A stretch of 64,000 nucleotides of DNA from Gaiella sp. (GTDB lineage Bacteria; Actinomycetota; Thermoleophilia; Gaiellales; Gaiellaceae), in assembly GCA_027493885.1 (NCBI GenBank), contig JAOSJZ010000001.1, positions 310,001-374,000 on the forward strand, written 5' to 3'. Every line of letters begins with the position of its first letter. The first letter of the stretch is position 1. Made by a program: the position numbers and the translations under genes. Under the pieces are notes generated by a model. That model had not been told where the DNA came from. It searched no databases and saw only the letters and a program-made list of their open reading frames with translations. This document shows positions 37,533-63,631 of the stretch, one piece after another.

Positions 37533-38537
37533 TCAGGCGCGGACGCGGGTGCGCGCCCGCGGAGCGGCCGCGAGCTGCCCGCACGCGGCGGCGATGTCGC
37601 GGCCACGGGTGAGGCGAACCGTGGCCGGGACACGGGCGCGATCGAGCTCGACCTTGAACGCGGCGATCGCGTCCCGAGACGAGCCGTCGTACATCCCGGT
37701 CGGGTTGTACGGGATGAGGTTCACCTTGAATGCGCCTCCACCGAGGAGCCCCGCGAGGAGCCGCGCCTGCGCCGGCGAGTCGTTGACGCCGGCGAGCATC
37801 ACGTATTCGACGAAGACGCGCCGGTTCGTGCGCTCGAAGTGGGTCCGGCAGAGCGCCAGCACCTCGTTCAGCGGATAGCGGTCGTTCACGGGCATCAGCT
37901 CGCTGCGGAGCGCCGGGTCGGCCGCGTGGAGCGAGAGTGCGAGGCGGATCGGCTCCGAGATCTCGTCGACGAACCGCCGGAGCCCCGGCATCCAGCCCAC
38001 CGTGGAGATCGTCGTGCGGCGGTGCGTGACGCCGGCATCCGGGAGGCGCCTCGCCGCGGCGAGCACGTTGTCCACGTTCATGAACGGCTCTCCCATTCCC
38101 ATGAAGACGACGTGGTCGACCGCCTGCGTGCGCCGGAAGTGGAGCACCTGGTCGAGGATCTCCCACGCGGTCAGGTTTCGCCCGAACGCCATCCGGCCGG
38201 TCGCGCAGAACGTGCAGGTGAGCGGGCAGCCGGACTGCGAGGAGATGCACACCGAGCGCCTGCCGTCCCGGTAACGCATCAGCACGGCCTCGACCGGATG
38301 CCCGTCGTGCGTCCGGAAGAGCGTCTTCACCGTGCCGTCGCGGGCGCGCTGCTCCGTCTCGGGCTCGAGGGTCGAGAACGGGACCTCGCCGGCGAGCGCG
38401 TCGCGAAGCGGGCGGGGGACGTTCGTCATCGCGTCGTAGCCGGAGGCGCCGCGCGCCGTCCATTCCCAGACCTGCCGGACGCGGTACGAGGGCTCTCCGA
38501 GCTCCGCGATCCGGCGCTCGAGGAGCGTGAGATCCAT
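37533..38537 (-). CDS. rlmN: Dual-specificity 23S rRNA/tRNA adenine-C2 methyltransferase RlmN
   Basis: 334 residues from ATG 38537. The radical-SAM cluster motif CPLTCTFC (Cys 105, 109, 112) follows SVCISSQSG. VVFMGMGEPFMNVDNVLAAA, RTTISTVGWMPGLRRFV, LALSLHAADPALRSELMPVN and VFVEYVMLAGVNDSPAQARL are all family hallmarks. The C-terminal VRLTRGRDIAAACGQL carries the second catalytic cysteine. It methylates C2 of A2503 in 23S rRNA and A37 in some tRNAs. It shares a 23-bp divergent promoter region with ltaE. Confidence 0.96.
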   Translation of the reverse strand: MDLTLLERRIAELGEPSYRVRQVWEWTARGASGYDAMTNVPRPLRDALAGEVPFSTLEPETEQRARDGTVKTLFRTHDGHPVEAVLMRYRDGRRSVCISSQSGCPLTCTFCATGRMAFGRNLTAWEILDQVLHFRRTQAVDHVVFMGMGEPFMNVDNVLAAARRLPDAGVTHRRTTISTVGWMPGLRRFVDEISEPIRLALSLHAADPALRSELMPVNDRYPLNEVLALCRTHFERTNRRVFVEYVMLAGVNDSPAQARLLAGLLGGGAFKVNLIPYNPTGMYDGSSRDAIAAFKVELDRARVPATVRLTRGRDIAAACGQLAAAPRARTRVRA

Positions 38538-38543
38538 GCCGCA

Positions 38544-38553
38544 ACGGTAGCGT
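38544..38553. promoter_or_regulatory. Overlapping antiparallel -10 elements for rlmN and ltaE
   Basis: Only 23 bp separate the two start codons. Plus strand: TAGCGT (38548-38553), 7 nt, GTG of ltaE. Minus strand: TACCGT (38549-38544), 6 nt, ATG of rlmN. The core AACGGTAGCGTT is nearly symmetric. Both transcripts would be leaderless. Confidence 0.6.
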
Positions 38554-38560
38554 TCCGTCC

Positions 38561-39604
38561 GTGATCGACCTGCGCTCGGACACCGCGACGCGACCTACCG
38601 ACGGCATGCGCGCGGCGATCGCCGCGGCAGAGGTCGGCGACGAGCAACGGCGCGAGGATCCGTCGGTCAACCTGCTGCAGGAGCGCGCCGCGGCGCTGCT
38701 CGGGCAGGAGGCGGCGCTCTTCTTCCCGACCGCGACGATGGCGAACCAGATCGCGCTCAAGCTCCACTCGCGGCCCGGCGACGTCCTCGTCGCGGAGCGG
38801 CACGCGCACGTCGTGATCTACGAGTACGGCGGCGCGGCGGCGCACGCGGGCCTGATGATCGAGGCGATCGACGGACGCCACGGCCGCTTCGGCGTCACGG
38901 AGCTCGACGCCGTGACGATGCCGGGCACGAAGTCGGCCGACCAGCGCCCCGCCGTGCTCGCGCTGGAGAACACGCACAACTCGTCGGGCGGGCGCTGCTG
39001 GCCCCTCGCCGAGCTCGAGCCGCTGACGGCGGCGGCGCGCGAGCGCCGCCTGCGCATCCACCTCGACGGGGCGCGGCTCCTGAACGCGGCGGTCGCGACG
39101 GGCGTCGTCCCCGCGCAGATCGGGCGGCTGTTCGACACGGTCACGCTCTGCCTCTCGAAGGGCCTCGGCTGCCCGCTCGGGGCGCTCCTCGCGGGCTCCA
39201 CCGAGACGATCGAGCGCGCGTGGCGGGAGAAGCACCTGTTCGGCGGCGCGATGCGCCAGGCCGGGATCGTCGCGGCGGCGGGCGTCTACGCGCTCGAGCA
39301 CCACGTCGACCGGCTGGCGGACGACCACGGCCGCGCGAGGCGGCTCGCAGAGGGCTGGCACGCGGCCGGCCTCCCGGTCGATCTCGAGCAGGTGGAGACG
39401 AACTTCGTCCAGCTCGACGTCGGTGCGCTCGGGCTCGGACGCGACGAGGCGCTCGCACGGCTCCGGGAGGCGGGAGTCGGGCTCTCGTCGACGATCCACC
39501 CGACGGTCGTCCGCGCCGTGACGCACCTCGATCTCGACGACGGAGCGATCGATCGCGCGATCGAGCTCGCGCCGCAGGCGCTCGGGGCCCGTGTCGCCGC
39601 CTGA
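38561..39604 (+). CDS. ltaE: Low-specificity L-threonine aldolase / beta-eliminating lyase family
   Basis: 347 residues. DLRSDTATRPTDGMRAAIAA at the start, ALFFPTATMANQIALKLHSR, ERHAHVVIYEYGGAA, LENTHNSSGGRCWPLAELEP, RIHLDGARLLNAAVATGV and TLCLSKGLGCPLGALLAGST (PLP Lys near residue 200) are the aldolase motifs. It cleaves threonine or allo-threonine to glycine and acetaldehyde. The glycine-cleavage operon 5 kb upstream could consume the glycine, though they are not one transcript. The 3' end overlaps the next gene by 14 bp. Confidence 0.92.
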   Translation: MIDLRSDTATRPTDGMRAAIAAAEVGDEQRREDPSVNLLQERAAALLGQEAALFFPTATMANQIALKLHSRPGDVLVAERHAHVVIYEYGGAAAHAGLMIEAIDGRHGRFGVTELDAVTMPGTKSADQRPAVLALENTHNSSGGRCWPLAELEPLTAAARERRLRIHLDGARLLNAAVATGVVPAQIGRLFDTVTLCLSKGLGCPLGALLAGSTETIERAWREKHLFGGAMRQAGIVAAAGVYALEHHVDRLADDHGRARRLAEGWHAAGLPVDLEQVETNFVQLDVGALGLGRDEALARLREAGVGLSSTIHPTVVRAVTHLDLDDGAIDRAIELAPQALGARVAA

Positions 39605-54801: not shown

Positions 54802-54874
54802 AGGCCCATACGGGATTCGAACCCGTGCCGCCGCCGTGAGAGGGCGGTGTCCTAGGCCACTAGACGAATGGGCC
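54802..54874 (-). tRNA. tRNA-Glu (CTC)
   Basis: Cloverleaf on the minus strand: acceptor GGCCCAT/ATGGGCC, D-arm TCGTCTAGTGGCCTAGGAC, anticodon arm CCGCC-CTCTCAC-GGCGG with anticodon CTC, T-arm GGGTTCGAATCCC. CCA is not encoded. The discriminator base reads T. Confidence 0.92.
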
Positions 54875-56058: not shown

Positions 56059-56129
56059 CTGCGGGACAGGGACTCGAACCCCAACTTCCGGAGCCAGAAT
56101 CCGGCGTCCTACCATTAGACGATCCCGCA
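56059..56129 (-). tRNA. tRNA-Gln (CTG)
   Basis: Minus strand: acceptor TGCGGGA/TCCCGCA with discriminator G, D-arm TCGTCTAATGGTAGGA, anticodon arm CCGGA-TTCTGGC-TCCGG with anticodon CTG, T-arm GGGGTTCGAGTCCC. CCA is not encoded. Confidence 0.93.
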
Positions 56130-57098: not shown

Positions 57099-57716
57099 TC
57101 AGGGACGCTCCGTGTGCGGCGGGTGAGCGATGCGCTCGAGCTCGCGCCGAACGTGCGTGAGCGCCTTGCCGAGCCGCTTGCGGTTCGTTTCGTCGTTGAG
57201 CCATCCGCTCGCTCCCGACGGGTGGGGAAGCGGTACCGCCACGGCGTCGTCGAGCAGATAGCTCTTGCCGACGGCGTCGGCGAGACGCCGGACGCCGAGC
57301 AGTTGCGCCGCGGCGGGGAGCCCGACCGTCACGACGAGCGCGGGGCGGAGGAGGCGGAGCTCGTCTTCTCGCCAGGAGGCACAGAGCTCCTCCTCGGCGG
57401 GCGTGGCCCGGCGGTCGCCGCGTCCGCCGGGACTCGGGCCGGGGAAGCAGCGCGTCACCGACGCGCAGTAGAAGCGCTCGAAGAAGTCCTTTTCCTCGAG
57501 CCGGAGCCAGCGCCGTAGCGTCGCCCCCGCGCGCCCTTGCCAGGGGAGACCCGTCTCCGCCTCGACCCGGCCGGGCGCGAGGCCGTAGAGGTACGCTCGC
57601 TGACCCACGTGGCCGGCGAACACGGGCGGCGGGACGATCGGGTAGCCCGCCTCGAGGCAGCGCCGGCACGCTGCGTTGCGCCGCTGCAGCGCGACGACCG
57701 AGCGCGCCCGGCTCAC
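57099..57716 (-). CDS. Uracil-DNA glycosylase-like protein (family 4/5 type)
   Basis: 205 residues from GTG 57716, whose GTGA overlaps the stop of the methyltransferase. RRNAACRRCLEAGYPIVPPP is the Cys-bearing N-terminus. YLYGLAPGRVEAETGLPWQG and RAGATLRRWL form motif A (GxAPGxxEAxxGxPFxGxAG). FYCASVTRCFPGPSPGGRGD, LVVTVGLPAAAQLLG and VPLPHPSGASGWLND (motif B, HPS) follow. Only a few of the four cluster cysteines of family 4 are evident, so an Fe-S cluster is likely but not certain. Removes uracil from DNA in base-excision repair. Confidence 0.85.
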   Translation of the reverse strand: MSRARSVVALQRRNAACRRCLEAGYPIVPPPVFAGHVGQRAYLYGLAPGRVEAETGLPWQGRAGATLRRWLRLEEKDFFERFYCASVTRCFPGPSPGGRGDRRATPAEEELCASWREDELRLLRPALVVTVGLPAAAQLLGVRRLADAVGKSYLLDDAVAVPLPHPSGASGWLNDETNRKRLGKALTHVRRELERIAHPPHTERP

Positions 57717-58330
57717 CCGGCCGACCGGGGCGAGCGCACGACGACGAACCACCGTCCCGCGTGGAGCACCTCGCCGCCGCCGAGCTCGCCGAGCAGCGGG
57801 TCGGGCGCGAAGTAGCGTTTGTAGACCTCCCAGCGCGAGCCGTCGAGCAGCCGGCGCTCGGACCACTCGTCGTCGACCGGCGAGTGCTCGCGCGAGGCGT
57901 CGACGAGCACGAGCTCCGGCGCGACGCGGCGGGCCTCACGGAGGAACGCTGCGCGCTCACGCGCGTCGACGTGGCCGTAGAAGTGGCCGCTGACGACGCG
58001 ATCGAACGCGTCGTCGGGGAACGGGAGCGCGAAAGCGTCTCCCTGCACCAGCGTCGCGTGGGGCAGGCGGCCCGCCGCCACCTCGAGCATCCGCGAGCTC
58101 TGGTCGAGCCCGGTGACCTCGCCGCGGAGGTGCCGCGTGAGGAAGCCGGTGCCGCAGGCGACGTCCAGGGAGCGTGTGGGCGGCAGCGCGAAGAGGGTCT
58201 CGCAAACGCGTGCGAGCTCCTCGTCGAAGCCCTCGCGGTCTCTCTCCACCCAGGCCCCGTGCCCGAGATACCAGTCGTCGTACTCGCGCGCGCGGCGGTC
58301 GTAGTACGCGGGTGCGGTCGGCTCGCGCAT
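57713..58330 (-). CDS. SAM-dependent methyltransferase (class I)
   Basis: 205 residues from ATG 58330. YYDRRAREYDDWYLGHGAWV, then motif I SLDVACGTGFLTRHLRGEVT, LDQSSRMLEVAAGRLPHATL (motif II), GDAFALPFPDDAFDRVVSGH (motif IV) make a UbiE-like fold. The C-terminal third (SERRLLDGSRWEVYKRYFAP) is shared by a group of actinobacterial methyltransferases of unknown substrate. The -10 TACCCT lies 7 nt upstream and overlaps that of ftcD on the opposite strand. It is coupled to the uracil-DNA glycosylase gene. Confidence 0.87.
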   Translation of the reverse strand: MREPTAPAYYDRRAREYDDWYLGHGAWVERDREGFDEELARVCETLFALPPTRSLDVACGTGFLTRHLRGEVTGLDQSSRMLEVAAGRLPHATLVQGDAFALPFPDDAFDRVVSGHFYGHVDARERAAFLREARRVAPELVLVDASREHSPVDDEWSERRLLDGSRWEVYKRYFAPDPLLGELGGGEVLHAGRWFVVVRSPRSAG

Positions 58331-58336
58331 CGGTCG

Positions 58337-58343
58337 TAGGGTA
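58337..58343. promoter_or_regulatory. Overlapping antiparallel -10 elements for ftcD and the methyltransferase
   Basis: The start codons are 19 bp apart. Plus: TAGGGT (58337-58342), 7 nt, GTG 58350. Minus: TACCCT (58343-58338), 7 nt, ATG 58330. The two hexamers share five base pairs and the spacing is equal on both sides, so both transcripts would be leaderless. Confidence 0.65.
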
Positions 58344-58349
58344 TGCGCC

Positions 58350-59294
58350 GTGACGCTCCTCGAGGCCGTGCCGAACGTGTCCGAAGGTCGCAACCCGTCG
58401 GTCGTGACCGCGATCGCGGACGCGTTCGCAAGTGCCGGGGCACGCGTGCTCGACACGCACCTCGACGGTGACCACCACCGGGCCGTGGTGACCATCGTCG
58501 GCGACGAACGCGCCCTCGGGGACGGGCTCGTCGCGGGCATCGACGCGGCTCGGCGCTCGATCGACCTTCGACGCCATGACGGTGTCCACCCGCGGGTCGG
58601 CGCAGCCGACGTCGTGCCCCTCGTCCCGCTCGCGGCCGGTGACCAAGGCCGGGCGGCGGAGCTGGCCCACGCGGTCGGAGCACGGGTCGGCAGCGAGCTC
58701 GGGCTGCCCGTCTTCCTCTACGGCGAGATCCGCGACGGACGGCGTCCGGCCTTCTTCCGGCATGGAGGCGTTCGGGAGCTCGAGGCGCGCATGGCCGCCG
58801 GCGAGCTCGAGCCGGACTACGGGCCGAGGAGGCTCGACCCGGGCGCGGGAGCAGTGCTCGTCGGCGTGCGCAAGCTGCTCGTCGCGTTCAACCTCGAGCT
58901 GCAGGGTACGTTCGACACGGCTCGCGCCGTCGCCGCCGCCGTACGCGAGTCCTCGGGCGGGCTTCCGGGCGTGCAGGCGCTCGCGCTCGCTCTCCGGAGC
59001 GGCGGGGTGCAGGTCTCCACGAACGTCGTCGACCTCGATGCGACCGCGCCGCATGTGATGGTGGAGCGGATCGTCGAGGAGGCGGCCGCCCGCGGCGCCG
59101 AGGTGGGGCGCGGCGAGCTCGTCGGGCTGATCCCTGCACGCTGCGTGGCGGACGCCGCGCTCGCGGCGGAAGTCGCAAGCCCGCTCGATGCCCGTGGCGT
59201 CCCGACGACCGCCGCGCGGGCGGCGGCGGCACGTGCGCTGCGGCTGGAGCGGCTCGAGCCCGATCGCGTGCTCGAGTGGCACCTCGCAGGCTGA
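58350..59294 (+). CDS. ftcD: Glutamate formimidoyltransferase
   Basis: 314 residues from GTG 58350. LLEAVPNVSEGRNPSVVTAI, VLDTHLDGDHHRAVVTIVGD (His pair of the folate site), IDLRRHDGVHPRVGAADVVP, PVFLYGEIRDGRRPAFFRHG, and PDYGPRRLDPGAGAVLVGVR are the formiminotransferase N- and C-subdomain motifs. It has no cyclodeaminase domain, so it is the short form. It moves the formimino group to tetrahydrofolate in the last step of histidine degradation. It begins the hut gene run, ~250 bp before the intron. Confidence 0.94.
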   Translation: MTLLEAVPNVSEGRNPSVVTAIADAFASAGARVLDTHLDGDHHRAVVTIVGDERALGDGLVAGIDAARRSIDLRRHDGVHPRVGAADVVPLVPLAAGDQGRAAELAHAVGARVGSELGLPVFLYGEIRDGRRPAFFRHGGVRELEARMAAGELEPDYGPRRLDPGAGAVLVGVRKLLVAFNLELQGTFDTARAVAAAVRESSGGLPGVQALALALRSGGVQVSTNVVDLDATAPHVMVERIVEEAAARGAEVGRGELVGLIPARCVADAALAAEVASPLDARGVPTTAARAAAARALRLERLEPDRVLEWHLAG

Positions 59295-59415
59295 GCGACC
59301 CGCCTTCGTACCGGAGTGCCGCGCCGTTCCGCGTGCCGCCCCGTTCCGCGGCGGCTATGCATGAGGTATCGAGCGCCGCCTCGCGGGGTCGGAACGTTGC
59401 GAAGACGGCACGGTC

Positions 59416-59461
59416 CCGTCACACCCCCGTGACGGCTTCCGCGATAGCGTGACTCCAGGGA
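59416..59461 (+). repeat. Dispersed element copy 2 with inverted repeat and TAGCGT
   Basis: CCGTCAC, ACCCCC, GTGACGG (59416-59435) is a perfect 7-bp inverted repeat, directly followed by CTTCCGCGATAGCGTGAC (59436-59453) and CAGGGA, the sequence also found at 21903. Candidate operator plus promoter for the hut genes or a short RNA. Confidence 0.5.
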
Positions 59462-59525
59462 GCCTCGCTCCCCCAAGGGGGGAGGCATCGAGACGGCGCC
59501 CCGGTCGTGCTGGCCGCGACCGGTC

Positions 59526-59531
59526 TACACT
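59526..59531 (+). promoter_or_regulatory. -10 of the original leaderless hutH promoter
   Basis: TACACT, 6 nt (CGCGCC), GTG 59538. This matches the leaderless starts elsewhere, but the codons after GTG are the intron 5' end, so the start is now separated from the hutH body by 632 bp. Confidence 0.55.
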
Positions 59532-59540
59532 CGCGCCGTG

Positions 59541-60172
59541 GTGCGCCTTGAAAGCTGGATCGGGCCAGCGGGTGTGAGTCCCGTCCGGGTAAGCGCCGGA
59601 GCGCCCGGTAGCAGGCCCCAGTTGCGGGGAGGGATCCCCGTGGCCGAGCGGGGTGTCAAGAGCCTCTTGGAGGGAGCAGGCGCGTGGGCTGCGACTGCAG
59701 CCTCGTCAGAGTCACAATCGGGGAGCCGAGCCGCTCAGGTCACGGCGAAGGCCACGTCCTGCAGTCCTTTATTCCGGATTGGGCTGGGTGGGTCCGCGCG
59801 GGGTAGGGGAAGTGGCACGCGCGCACGGTCTGGTCACGGAACAAGGGAGGCCCGTCTGTCCAGCCTCGTCAGCAAAGACCGCTCGTATAAGCCGATGGTG
59901 AAGTCGAGCGGAGGGCAGCGGGAGTCCGAGGGGGCCGTAGTAGTGAGGATCGGCGTGCAGAAGAACGCGCCGGGAGCGAAGGGCCCTCACTTCGGTCGTG
60001 GTCGTGCAGCGGTGACGCGCTGCGGGTGGCATCCGAGGTTCGTGTCGTCGACGGGTACGTTGCGGCGTCAGGAAGACCGTCGGTGAGCCGTGTGCGGGAA
60101 AACCGCATGCACGGATCGAAAGGGGGATCTGGAAACGGGCTCGCCTAGAGCGAGCACCGCGCCAGTGACTAC
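59541..60172 (+). mobile_element. ORF-less group II intron (or relic) at the start of hutH
   Basis: The 5' end GTGCGCC fits the GUGYG intron start. Internal GAGCGGAGGGCAGCGGGAGT, then CCGAGGGGGCCGTAGTAGTG resembles the region before the reverse transcriptase in bacterial introns. Domain V is at 60085-60117: GAGCCGTGTGCGGGAAAACC, then GCATGCACGGATC, with the AGC triad strand, TGCGG/CCGCA stem, GAAA-type loop and the TG bulge. Domain VI-like sequence runs to about 60172. No reverse transcriptase or maturase frame exists. In the 3' strand GGATC the usual triad GUU reads GAU, giving a G-A mismatch. The 3' boundary is approximate. Confidence 0.75.
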
Positions 60173-60174
60173 CA

Positions 60175-61710
60175 GTGCCGACCGCAATCGAGCTGACGGG
60201 AGAAGCCCTTTCGATCGACGACGTCTGGGATGTCGCGGTCGACAGGCGCTCCGCCGTTCTCGGGGCAAGCGGTCGCGAGCGTGCGGCCGCGGCGCGGGCA
60301 TTCCTCGAGACGCACGCTGCCGATCACACCTACGGCGTCAACACGGGGTTCGGGCGGTTCGTGTCCGAGTCGATTCCTCCAGAGCGGGCTGCGGAGCTCC
60401 AGCTACGGCTGCTTCGGAGCCACGCCTGCGGCGTCGGCGATCCCTACCCCGACGACGTCGTCCGTGCCGCGATGCTGCTTCGCGCCAACACCCTCGCGAA
60501 GGGATTTTCAGGCGCCCGCGTCGAGACGATCGAGCTGCTCCTCGACGTGCTGCGAGCGGGGATCGTGCCGTTCGTTCCCTCGCGCGGGTCGGTCGGCGCG
60601 AGCGGTGACCTCGCTCCGCTCGCGCATCTCGCTCTACCTCTCGTCGGCGAGGGCGAGGCGACGGTTGACGGACGTCGCGTGACCGGCGACGAGGCGCTCA
60701 CCGCCGCGGGCCTCGCGCCGATCACGCTCGCCGCGAAGGAGGGCCTGTCGCTCATCAACGGCACGCAGTTCATGACCGCGATGGCCGCGCTGGCGCTCGT
60801 GCGCGCCGGGCGGCTGGCCCGCGTGGCGGACGCCGCGTGCGCGATGTCCGTCGAGGCGCTCCAGGGTACGCCGATGAGCTTTCATCCGGCCATCCACGCT
60901 GCGAGGCCGCTTCCGGGCCAGCGTGCGAGCGCCGCCGCGCTGCGCGGACTGCTCGCGGGCTCCGCGATCGTCGAGTCCCACCGCTGGTGCGACAAGGTGC
61001 AGGACGCCTACTCGCTGCGGTGCGCGCCGCAGGTCCACGGGGCGAGCAGGGACCTCCTCGACCACGTCAGACGCACGGTCGCCGTCGAGCTAAATGCCGC
61101 AACGGACAACCCGCTCGTCCTCCTCGACCAGGAGCTCATCGTCTCGAACGGCAACTTCCACGGCCAGCCGGTCGCCATGGGGCTCGACTGCATCGCGATC
61201 GCGTGCGCGGAGCTTGCGAGCATCAGCGAGCGGCGAACCGAGCGGCTCGTCAACCCGAGCCTCTCCGACGGCCTACCACCGTTCCTCGTCGCGCGAGAAG
61301 AGGGGCTCAACTCGGGCTTCATGATCCCGCAGTACGTCGCCGCTGCGCTCGTGTCCGAGAACAAGGCTCTCTGCCACCCGGGCTCGGTGGACTCGATCCC
61401 GACGAGCGCAGGGCAGGAGGACCACGTCTCGATGGGCAACGGCGCAGGGCTCAAGGCGCTGCAGGTCGTCGCGAACGCGGAGCGCGTGCTCGCGATCGAG
61501 CTTCTCGCCGGCGCCCAAGCGGTCGAGTTTCTCGCACCGCTCGAGCCCGGCATCGGCGTACGGGCGGCACGCGCCTTCGTCCGGACGCTGTCCTCCCGCG
61601 TGCGAGAGGATCGGCCGCTGTCGGCAGACATCGAACGTGTGGCGTCCGCGATCCGCGACGGCACGCTTCTCGCGGCGATCGCGTCCGCTGTCCCCGAGGT
61701 GATCGAATGA
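60175..61710 (+). CDS. hutH: Histidine ammonia-lyase
   Basis: 511 residues from GTG 60175. YGVNTGFGRFVSESIPPERA and the MIO triad Ala142-Ser143-Gly144 in SRGSVGASGDLAPLAHLALP form the electrophilic cofactor. NGTQFMTAMAALALVRAGRL, QDAYSLRCAPQVHGASRDLL, ELNAATDNPLVLLDQELIVS, NGNFHGQPVAMGLDCIAIAC and SIPTSAGQEDHVSMGNGAGL are HAL motifs. It deaminates histidine to urocanate. Length matches the family. The present GTG lies 3 bp after the intron, so unspliced mRNA would carry a ~640-nt structured leader. The stop overlaps the next ATG. Confidence 0.96.
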   Translation: MPTAIELTGEALSIDDVWDVAVDRRSAVLGASGRERAAAARAFLETHAADHTYGVNTGFGRFVSESIPPERAAELQLRLLRSHACGVGDPYPDDVVRAAMLLRANTLAKGFSGARVETIELLLDVLRAGIVPFVPSRGSVGASGDLAPLAHLALPLVGEGEATVDGRRVTGDEALTAAGLAPITLAAKEGLSLINGTQFMTAMAALALVRAGRLARVADAACAMSVEALQGTPMSFHPAIHAARPLPGQRASAAALRGLLAGSAIVESHRWCDKVQDAYSLRCAPQVHGASRDLLDHVRRTVAVELNAATDNPLVLLDQELIVSNGNFHGQPVAMGLDCIAIACAELASISERRTERLVNPSLSDGLPPFLVAREEGLNSGFMIPQYVAAALVSENKALCHPGSVDSIPTSAGQEDHVSMGNGAGLKALQVVANAERVLAIELLAGAQAVEFLAPLEPGIGVRAARAFVRTLSSRVREDRPLSADIERVASAIRDGTLLAAIASAVPEVIE

Positions 61711-61946
61711 GCGACCTGCCGACGCCACAGCGCGCGTACCGTGGAGCGGCGATCCTGCACGGGATCCTCGCCGTGGTGATCCTGGCCGTTGCCGCAATCT
61801 CAGGGGGTGGCCTCGTACGGGCGCTGCTGGTCGCGGTCGCCTACTTCGTCGTCGCGACCGGCTGGAGCTGGTTCAGGTTCCGGCAGCGCGAGATACGCGC
61901 AGACCCTCGGCGGCAGGCGGCGAGCAACGGGGGTAAGCGGTCGTGA
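61707..61946 (+). CDS. Small membrane protein in the hut operon
   Basis: 79 residues from ATG 61707 (ATGA overlap with hutH). Two hydrophobic segments ([20 protein letters not shown] and [20 protein letters not shown]) are followed by a basic tail ([12 protein letters not shown]). The next gene's GTG overlaps its stop as GTGA, so it is translationally coupled on both sides. No family known to me. It could assist a transporter or be a membrane anchor, but no histidine transporter is visible in the window. Confidence 0.7.
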
Positions 61947-63631
61947 GCGAGGCGCTGGTCGAGAAGCTCGTCGGCGATCTCTCCGCGATCCGAGCGCCCC
62001 GAGGGACGACGTTGAACGCGCGGTCGTGGCAGACGGAGGCACCACTCCGCATGCTCCTCAACAACCTCGACCCCGAGGTTGCCGAGCACCCCGAAGCGCT
62101 TGTCGTCTACGGCGGCTCCGGGCGCGCGGCGCGCTCGCACCGCGCGCTCCGCGACATCGTCAGGACACTGCTGCGCCTGGAAGACGACGAGACGCTGCTT
62201 GTCCAGTCGGGCAAGCCGGCGGGCGTGTTTCGTACGCATCCGGACGCGCCGCGGGTGCTGATCGCGAACTCGCTGCTCGTCCCGGCGTGGGCCTCGTGGG
62301 ACGAGTTCCGCCGACTCGAGGCCGAGGGTTTGACGATGTTCGGCCAGATGACGGCCGGGTCGTGGATCTACATCGGAACACAGGGAATCTTGCAGGGGAC
62401 GTACCAGACGTTCTGCGCCGCGGGCGAGGCGCACTTCGGCTCGCCCGACCTCTCCGGCAGGACGGTCCTGACCGCCGGCCTCGGCGGGATGGGCGGGGCA
62501 CAGCCGCTCGCCGCCACGATGGCGGGTGCCGCGATCCTCTGCGTCGAGGTCGACCAGCGGTCGATCGACCGGCGCCTGGCGACGCGGTACCTCGACGAGC
62601 AGGCGTCTTCGCTGGACGATGCGATCGCGCGCGTGCGGGCCGCAGCCGCCGAGCAGCGGCCGCTCTCGGTCGCCGTCCGGGCCAATGCGGCGGATGTCCT
62701 TCCCGAGCTCGCGGCGCGCGGTGAAGCCTTCGACCTCGTAACCGACCAGACCGCGGCGCACGATCCTCTCACGGGCTACATCCCGGCGGAGGTGCCGTTC
62801 GAGGAGGCTGCTGCACTGCGCGAGCGCGATCCGGAGGAATACCTTCGGCTGGCATCGCAGTCGATCGTGGCGCACGTGGAGGCGATGATCGACCTCGTCC
62901 GGATGGGGTGCTACGTTTTCGACTATGGAAACAATCTGCGAGGTGAGGCCTATCGGGCTGGCCTGAGCGATGCCTTCACATACCCGGGCTTCGTCCCGGC
63001 CTATCTCCGGCCGCTGTTCTGTCGCGGGATCGGGCCGTTCAGGTGGGCAGCGCTGTCGGGCGATCCGTCGGACATCGCGACGATCGATCGCGAGTTGCAG
63101 GCGCTCTTCCCCGACGATGGGCTCCTCCAGCGCTGGCTCGAGCTGGCGCCCGAGCGGGTGGCGTTTCAGGGGTTGCCGGCTCGCATCTGCTGGCTCGGTT
63201 ACGGCGACCGCGCCAAGGCGGGCCTCGCCATCAACGCGCTCGTCCGCTCCGGTTCGGTCTCGGCGCCCGTGGTGATCGGGAGGGATCACCTGGACTCGGG
63301 TTCCGTCGCGTCGCCGTACAGGGAGACCGAGGCCATGCGCGACGGCTCCGATGCCATCGCCGATTGGCCCATCCTGAACGCGCTCCTCAACACCGCCGCG
63401 GGCGCGACCTGGGTGAGCGTCCACCACGGCGGCGGCGTCGGGATCGGCAACTCGATCCACGCGGGCATGGTCGTCGTCGCCGACGGAAGCGTGGACGCCG
63501 AGCGCCGTCTCGAGCGCGTGCTCGCCGCCGACCCGGGCACGGGCGTGATGCGGCACGCCGACGCCGGCTACGAGGAGGCGATCGACGCGGCACGCGAGGG
63601 TGGTCTCGACCTTCCGGGCGTTACGTCGTGA
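61943..63631 (+). CDS. hutU: Urocanate hydratase
   Basis: 562 residues from GTG 61943. Motifs include [80 protein letters not shown], the NAD loop [60 protein letters not shown] (catalytic-site Cys) and [20 protein letters not shown]. It hydrates urocanate to imidazolone propionate using NAD as electrophile. Fully intact and of normal length. Next gene starts 19 bp later. Confidence 0.97.

Follow-up and report, generated by a model that had tools for sequence, protein, structure and literature searches.

A 19-bp gap between divergent ftcD and methyltransferase genes of Gaiella sp. as a putative bidirectional leaderless promoter with one shared -10 element

The 19 bp that separate the start codons of an ftcD-like gene and a divergent methyltransferase gene in Gaiella sp. 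(Gaiellaceae; Thermoleophilia, Actinomycetota) very probably act as one bidirectional promoter, from which both mRNAs would be transcribed leaderless or nearly so. The gap (CGGTCGTAGGGTATGCGCC) lies at positions 58331-58349 of the window, that is, the whole 64,000-nucleotide stretch of DNA analysed. Within it, the hexamer TAGGGT on the plus strand and the hexamer TACCCT on the minus strand overlap in TAGGGTA (58337-58343) and have the five positions 58338-58342 in common. The GTG of ftcD begins at 58350 on the plus strand, and the ATG of the methyltransferase gene occupies 58330-58328 on the minus strand. Exactly these two starts were picked by the gene caller, our own simple and uncurated script, which is blind to promoter motifs. 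The first-pass annotation of this DNA had given the same distance between the start codons, the same five common positions and the same 7 nt from each hexamer to its start, and these values proved exact. The sequence and spacing at the gap, the enrichment and the conservation are observed directly, and the last three support the reading, which that annotation had also proposed, of the site as a bidirectional leaderless promoter predicted from the sequence.

The features concerned are listed in Table 1. The ftcD-like gene scored 219.7 bits against the NCBIfam model TIGR02024 (FtcD), slightly below the cut-off of 221.25. On the other side of the gap, the end of the methyltransferase gene is overlapped by 4 bp by the uracil-DNA glycosylase superfamily gene. 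The ftcD-like gene is part of a histidine-use gene cluster (58350-63631), in which it is followed, beyond an intron-like element, by genes for histidine ammonia-lyase (60175-61710) and urocanase (61943-63631). The element, which resembles a group II intron, extends over ~0.6 kb (59538-60160) between ftcD and hutH and matched Rfam RF02003 at 59566-59699. A 98-99% copy of it was found in two pieces at C1:1937100-1937621, and a diverged 80% copy begins at C1:42325, with further pieces up to 44990. The window also contains two minus-strand tRNA genes (54802-54874 and 56059-56129).

Table 1. Coordinates, strands and sources of the features at the two short divergent gaps of the window
Feature	Position	Strand	Source or remark
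Whole 19-bp intergenic region, predicted shared promoter	58331..58349	no strand	sequence and gene calls
Putative -10 hexamer TAGGGT of ftcD	58337..58342	+	ends 7 nt from GTG
Putative -10 hexamer TACCCT of methyltransferase gene	58338..58343	-	7 nt from ATG; conserved in orthologues
ftcD-like glutamate formiminotransferase gene, GTG start	58350..59294	+	Pfam FTCD_N/FTCD; NCBIfam TIGR02024
Small SAM-dependent methyltransferase gene, ATG start	57713..58330	-	Pfam Methyltransf_11
Uracil-DNA glycosylase superfamily gene	57099..57716	-	Pfam; gene calls
Other window case, 23-bp gap, back-to-back -10 elements with common TA (ACGGTAGCGT at 38544-38553)	38538..38560	no strand	sequence
rlmN (radical SAM rRNA methyltransferase), left gene of the 38538-38560 gap	37533..38537	-	Pfam/NCBIfam
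PLP-dependent aldolase gene (Beta_elim_lyase; GntG / threonine-aldolase-like), right of the 38538-38560 gap	38561..39604	+	Pfam/NCBIfam

We sampled 1.07 Mb of the 3.29-Mb genome, namely 54 stretches and the window, with 967 predicted genes in all, and found a TANNNT hexamer 6-9 nt before the start of 175 of these genes (18%). The hexamer ended 6, 7, 8 and 9 nt before the start in 77, 48, 26 and 24 genes, respectively, and at any other distance from 0 to 34 nt in 0-5 genes, and its rate before internal ATG or GTG codons, used as the control, was 0.00-0.07% per position. The 18% is close to the average of 19.2% given for leaderless-type genes in Actinobacteria in a study that places TANNNT ~12 bp upstream of the start codon in the leaderless promoters of Actinobacteria and Deinococcus-Thermus (PMC3160421). 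On both sides of the 19-bp gap, the hexamer stands within this genome-wide peak. A Shine-Dalgarno-like GGAG was also enriched, 3-9 nt upstream of the starts in the sample. Since GGAG is enriched as well as TANNNT, both kinds of start are in use in this genome. When the 175 leaderless-type promoters of the sample were aligned, they showed no -35 signal, and for M. tuberculosis, too, it is reported that no conserved -35 motif was found (PMC3898074). In a genome of a second genus, placed in the same family (G024), TANNNT was located at 6, 7, 8 and 9 nt in 51, 31, 31 and 20 genes (133 in total) among 725.

The sample contains 111 predicted divergent pairs. Overlapping opposed TANNNT elements were observed in all five pairs with gaps of 15-30 bp. 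For gaps of 31-60 bp, hexamers were present on both sides in 5 of 13 pairs and overlapped in none, and for gaps of 0-14 bp, they were present on both sides in none of three. The overlap is partly forced, as elements located 6-9 nt from their own starts must overlap in a gap of 17-23 bp. Three of the five shared cores are TANNNTA (17-, 19- and 20-bp gaps), and the other two, including that at 38538-38560, are ANNNTANNNT (22- and 23-bp gaps). The first-pass annotation had expected a shared TAnnnTA core in such gaps and had counted two cases in the window, the first of which it left unnamed and which we took to be 38538-38560. The expected core is thus present in three of the five gaps, the other two having the ANNNTANNNT geometry; the count of two stands in that both sites have a shared -10 element, although the element at 38538-38560 shares the TA of ANNNTANNNT and has no TANNNTA core. 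In shuffled gaps, the mean number of full cores was 0.04 versus the 5 observed, a number that was never reached in 5000 trials.

For the second genus (G024), full hexamers were seen on both sides in only one of the 10 divergent gaps of 15-30 bp. Its eight gaps of 15-25 bp comprise one with a full shared core, six with three of the four fixed bases, one outer base being missing, and one without a shared element. The single full core was matched by 44 of 5000 shuffles. At least three of the four fixed bases would be expected in 0.16 of the 8 gaps, and seven near-full or full cores were reached in none of 5000 shuffles. These results support the shared arrangement in the second genus in a relaxed form only.

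The TANNNTA core is rare, with 38 copies in the 1.07-Mb sample, 26 of which lie outside predicted genes, suggesting either an avoidance of stray symmetric -10 elements or simply a scarcity of TA in coding DNA. A first pattern search, with a guessed longer palindrome, gave no match. The pattern CAY-N4-8-TANNNTA-N4-8-RTG matched at nine places genome-wide, versus none for the same core with N14-18 spacing. Eight of these nine sites have the best-of-six-frames ORF on both sides (the exception is L121), and two of the eight are weak on one side, the left ORF having 50 codons in L116 and a low score in L119. The ANNNTANNNT geometry gave 21 genome matches, two of them overlapping; among the 15 matches with loci, nine have best-scoring ORFs on both sides, one of them weak (L132). 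One ANNNTANNNT match (L137) sits inside a predicted gene. Another (L124, C1:42298-42326), located at the 5' end of a copy of the intron-like element with flanking ORFs that were not scored as coding, is likely a false positive. The back-to-back element was also seen at L130 (C1:505220-505251), where the right gene presumably resembles formimidoylglutamate deiminase and the left one CDP-alcohol phosphotransferase. As a control, the reversed pattern did not separate from the TANNNTA pattern in the genome (9 vs 9), gave 8 matches vs 21 for ANNNTANNNT, and across the family exceeded the pattern count in some cases and fell short of it in others. This control was judged unsuitable, because ATNNNAT greatly outnumbers TANNNTA in the sample (244 vs 38), and the off-spacing control was used instead for TANNNTA.

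Across 103 genomes of the family, 1292 correctly spaced TANNNTA matches were obtained versus 144 off-spacing matches, a 9-fold difference in counts that may score one place twice if it has two possible start codons. The correct spacing was ahead in 101 of the 103 genomes, the remaining two showing 4 vs 5 and 5 vs 5. The first-pass annotation had suggested a general arrangement in this lineage, to be checked by the enrichment of the shared core in short divergent gaps. The enrichment was found both in the sample, in five of five short gaps, and in the family-wide counts, and the second genus conforms in the relaxed form, most of its cores being one outer base short. Chance or a gene-calling artefact, for which it may be said that the short gaps number only five and that the gene caller is simple and uncurated, is already contradicted by the shuffles in both genomes, by the spacing controls (9 vs 0 in the genome, 1292 vs 144 in the family) and by the retention of the site in 15 genera, and such an origin is hardly credible.

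Outside the family, little signal was seen in 147 of the 149 genomes of a phylum survey, with 5051 correctly spaced and 4726 off-spacing matches. The 74 phylum genomes with at most 10 off-spacing matches gave 473 vs 231, a post hoc choice that favours enrichment. The highest ratios (4 to 6) were obtained for the families f9, f15, f16 and f35, of which f15 is mainly and f35 entirely one genome, and the ratio was 1.35 for f20 and f31. The enrichment was clearest in families where the TANNNTA core is rare. The spread of the pattern beyond the family is only suggestive.

For the ftcD/methyltransferase site itself, the 103 family genomes gave an ftcD match in 91 and a methyltransferase match in 46 (E <= 1e-20). 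The two genes are adjacent and divergent in 39 of the 46, these pairs being selected by homology and not by motif. The seven genomes left out have non-adjacent genes (G118, G093), genes on different contigs (G022, G066) or no ftcD match (G047, G057, G042). TANNNTA was present at the ftcD start in 37 of the 39 pairs and missing in two (G081, G090). In 32 pairs, from 15 genera and with gaps of 17-22 bp, both hexamers lie 5-10 nt from both starts; this number includes one genome (G021) in which the left start is unverified and the N-terminus of the methyltransferase was not found. The reverse spacing was 6-8 nt in about 30 of these 32 pairs, with distances listed as 6, 7, 8 and one 10. Four of the 39 were scored as misses because the script found no standard start-codon pair; three of them (G005, G044, G050) carry TANNNTA and one (G090) does not, and by eye G044 and G050 have a TTG methyltransferase start. 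The other misses are G049, in which the script took the nearer of two GTGs, G079, in which the gap measures 42 bp and the two elements stand apart, and G081. The middle bases of 34 aligned cores are GAG in 25 (TAGAGTA), GAC in five (TAGACTA), GGG in three (TAGGGTA) and CAG in one (TACAGTA); the four invariant bases follow from the selection of the cores and were not counted as evidence.

Two individual genomes deserve description. In G005 (L017), no ATG, GTG or TTG was seen by eye at the conserved methyltransferase start, and the core beside it is intact. In G021 (L022), the methyltransferase match covers residues 118-201 only, the N-terminal part seemingly being missing, and CAC and a TAGACTA core are present at the usual spacing.

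The base directly 3' of the ftcD hexamer corresponds to position -12 in the reverse promoter, and it is an A in 37 of the 39 divergent pairs. An A follows the hexamer in only 11 of the 175 leaderless-type promoters of the sample, and six of these 11 belong to the three shared TANNNTA pairs. Therefore, use of the core in both directions is indicated, with the reservation that the 39 genomes are related and non-independent.

Alternatively, the core may drive only ftcD, or only the methyltransferase gene, the opposed hexamer being an accident of tight packing and the other gene being served by an upstream promoter. Such a one-way promoter would be in line with the retention of the core before ftcD where the methyltransferase is absent. 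Four genomes of the same genus gave no methyltransferase match (G001, G002, G003 and G006); in these, TANNNTA still precedes ftcD, and the divergent neighbour is a ~200-codon gene resembling the uracil-DNA glycosylase gene of the window; in the one of the four that was compared (G006), it is 62% identical to that gene and has a Pfam UDG match. In G024, the core reads TAGGGTA and the divergent neighbour of ftcD is an ABC transporter gene. The reverse hexamer was located 6 nt (G003), 8 nt (G024), 10 nt (G006) or 13 nt (G001, G002) from the neighbour start, so that the start is farther off than usual in three of these five genomes, which again would suit a one-way promoter. Since a distance of 6 or 8 nt is seen only in G003 and G024, a leaderless neighbour start is likely in only two of the five, and the 10 or 13 nt of the others would mean a short leader or a wrong start call. 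However, the A that follows the hexamer of ftcD is required only for the reverse direction and is nevertheless present in nearly all of the pairs, the reverse spacing is kept in the fully matching pairs, and an upstream promoter for a leftward gene that starts 7 nt away would fall inside ftcD. We therefore regard transcription from the core in one direction only as unlikely.

It is also possible to view the palindrome as an operator, bound by a regulator that controls both genes, and not as a promoter core, as it is palindromic at its outer bases and placed between the two genes. However, unrelated gene pairs at other places in the genome also have these outer bases at this spacing between them, the middle bases vary among the orthologues, and the hexamer fits the general leaderless -10 signal, which together make an operator very improbable.

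Under the preferred reading, a bidirectional promoter, we infer transcription in both directions, leaderless starts and steric exclusion from the sequence. An RNA polymerase with the housekeeping sigma factor would load on the near-palindromic TAGGGTA in either orientation. The -11A and -7T of one direction would pair with the -7T and -11A of the other, so that a single melted element could serve both strands. The transcripts would begin at the ftcD GTG and the methyltransferase ATG or one base before them, and both mRNAs would therefore be leaderless or have a one-base leader. The predicted start sites would be 18 bp apart at the standard spacing, which places them one base before the codons, and 20 bp apart if they are on the codons. 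The two orientations could presumably not be occupied simultaneously, one bound polymerase excluding the other, and upstream promoter contacts, if any, would fall within the first codons of the opposite gene. Five bidirectional promoters of E. coli are described as having too little basal activity for competition, which was seen only once one direction had been strongly raised (PMC12825309). By analogy, the exclusion would affect the output only if one direction were strongly active.

Bidirectional promoters with a near-symmetric -10 element and reciprocal pairing of -7T and -11A are known from the work of Warman, Grainger and colleagues, in which 18 bp is reported as the most frequent distance between divergent start sites, distances of 10 and 23 bp being common as well (PMC10268837, PMC12825309). 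The site at 58337-58343 resembles these promoters, as its opposed -10 elements overlap and -11A and -7T are reciprocally paired on the shared -10. Divergent start sites 7-25 bp apart define a symmetric bidirectional promoter, and those predicted here would be 18-20 bp apart. TANNNTA corresponds to the published 18-bp class and ANNNTANNNT fits the 23-bp class, with the start sites here being predicted only. Unlike in the promoters of those accounts, the genes here start at the predicted transcription starts and the putative promoter takes up all of the intergenic DNA. For prpD/Rv1129c of M. tuberculosis, closely juxtaposed divergent promoters are described, with mapped leaderless starts for both genes (PMC3898074). 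That pair resembles the site here in being divergent and leaderless on both sides, as mapped there and predicted here, whereas the passage describing it does not state one common -10 element. In the published accounts concerned, leaderless TANNNT promoters are treated one direction at a time (PMC3160421, PMC3898074, PMC12340547), unlike here. No leaderless pair on one shared -10 element was recognised among the papers listed for leaderless genes and bidirectional or divergent promoters, in a collection that lacks most subscription journals.

Each ingredient is already known, namely leaderless TANNNT genes, symmetric bidirectional promoters and juxtaposed divergent leaderless promoters. We tentatively propose that a bidirectional leaderless promoter in its smallest form, consisting of four fixed A/T pairs within a gap of 17-22 bp and flanked by no untranslated DNA, may be a unit inherited in the family. 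Such a unit might persist while the gene on one side is swapped (methyltransferase, uracil-DNA glycosylase, ABC transporter) and might couple both genes when one direction is strongly active, the polymerase loading in one orientation at a time.

Overall, the site would join two known features in a very small divergent expression unit, suggesting an association of tight gene packing with symmetric -10 elements in lineages that are GC-rich and leaderless. The nine TANNNTA matches and the 21 ANNNTANNNT matches, two of them overlapping, form a candidate set in this genome, not all of which are real, and the orthologous series could be used for testing promoter competition and the co-evolution of promoters and genes.
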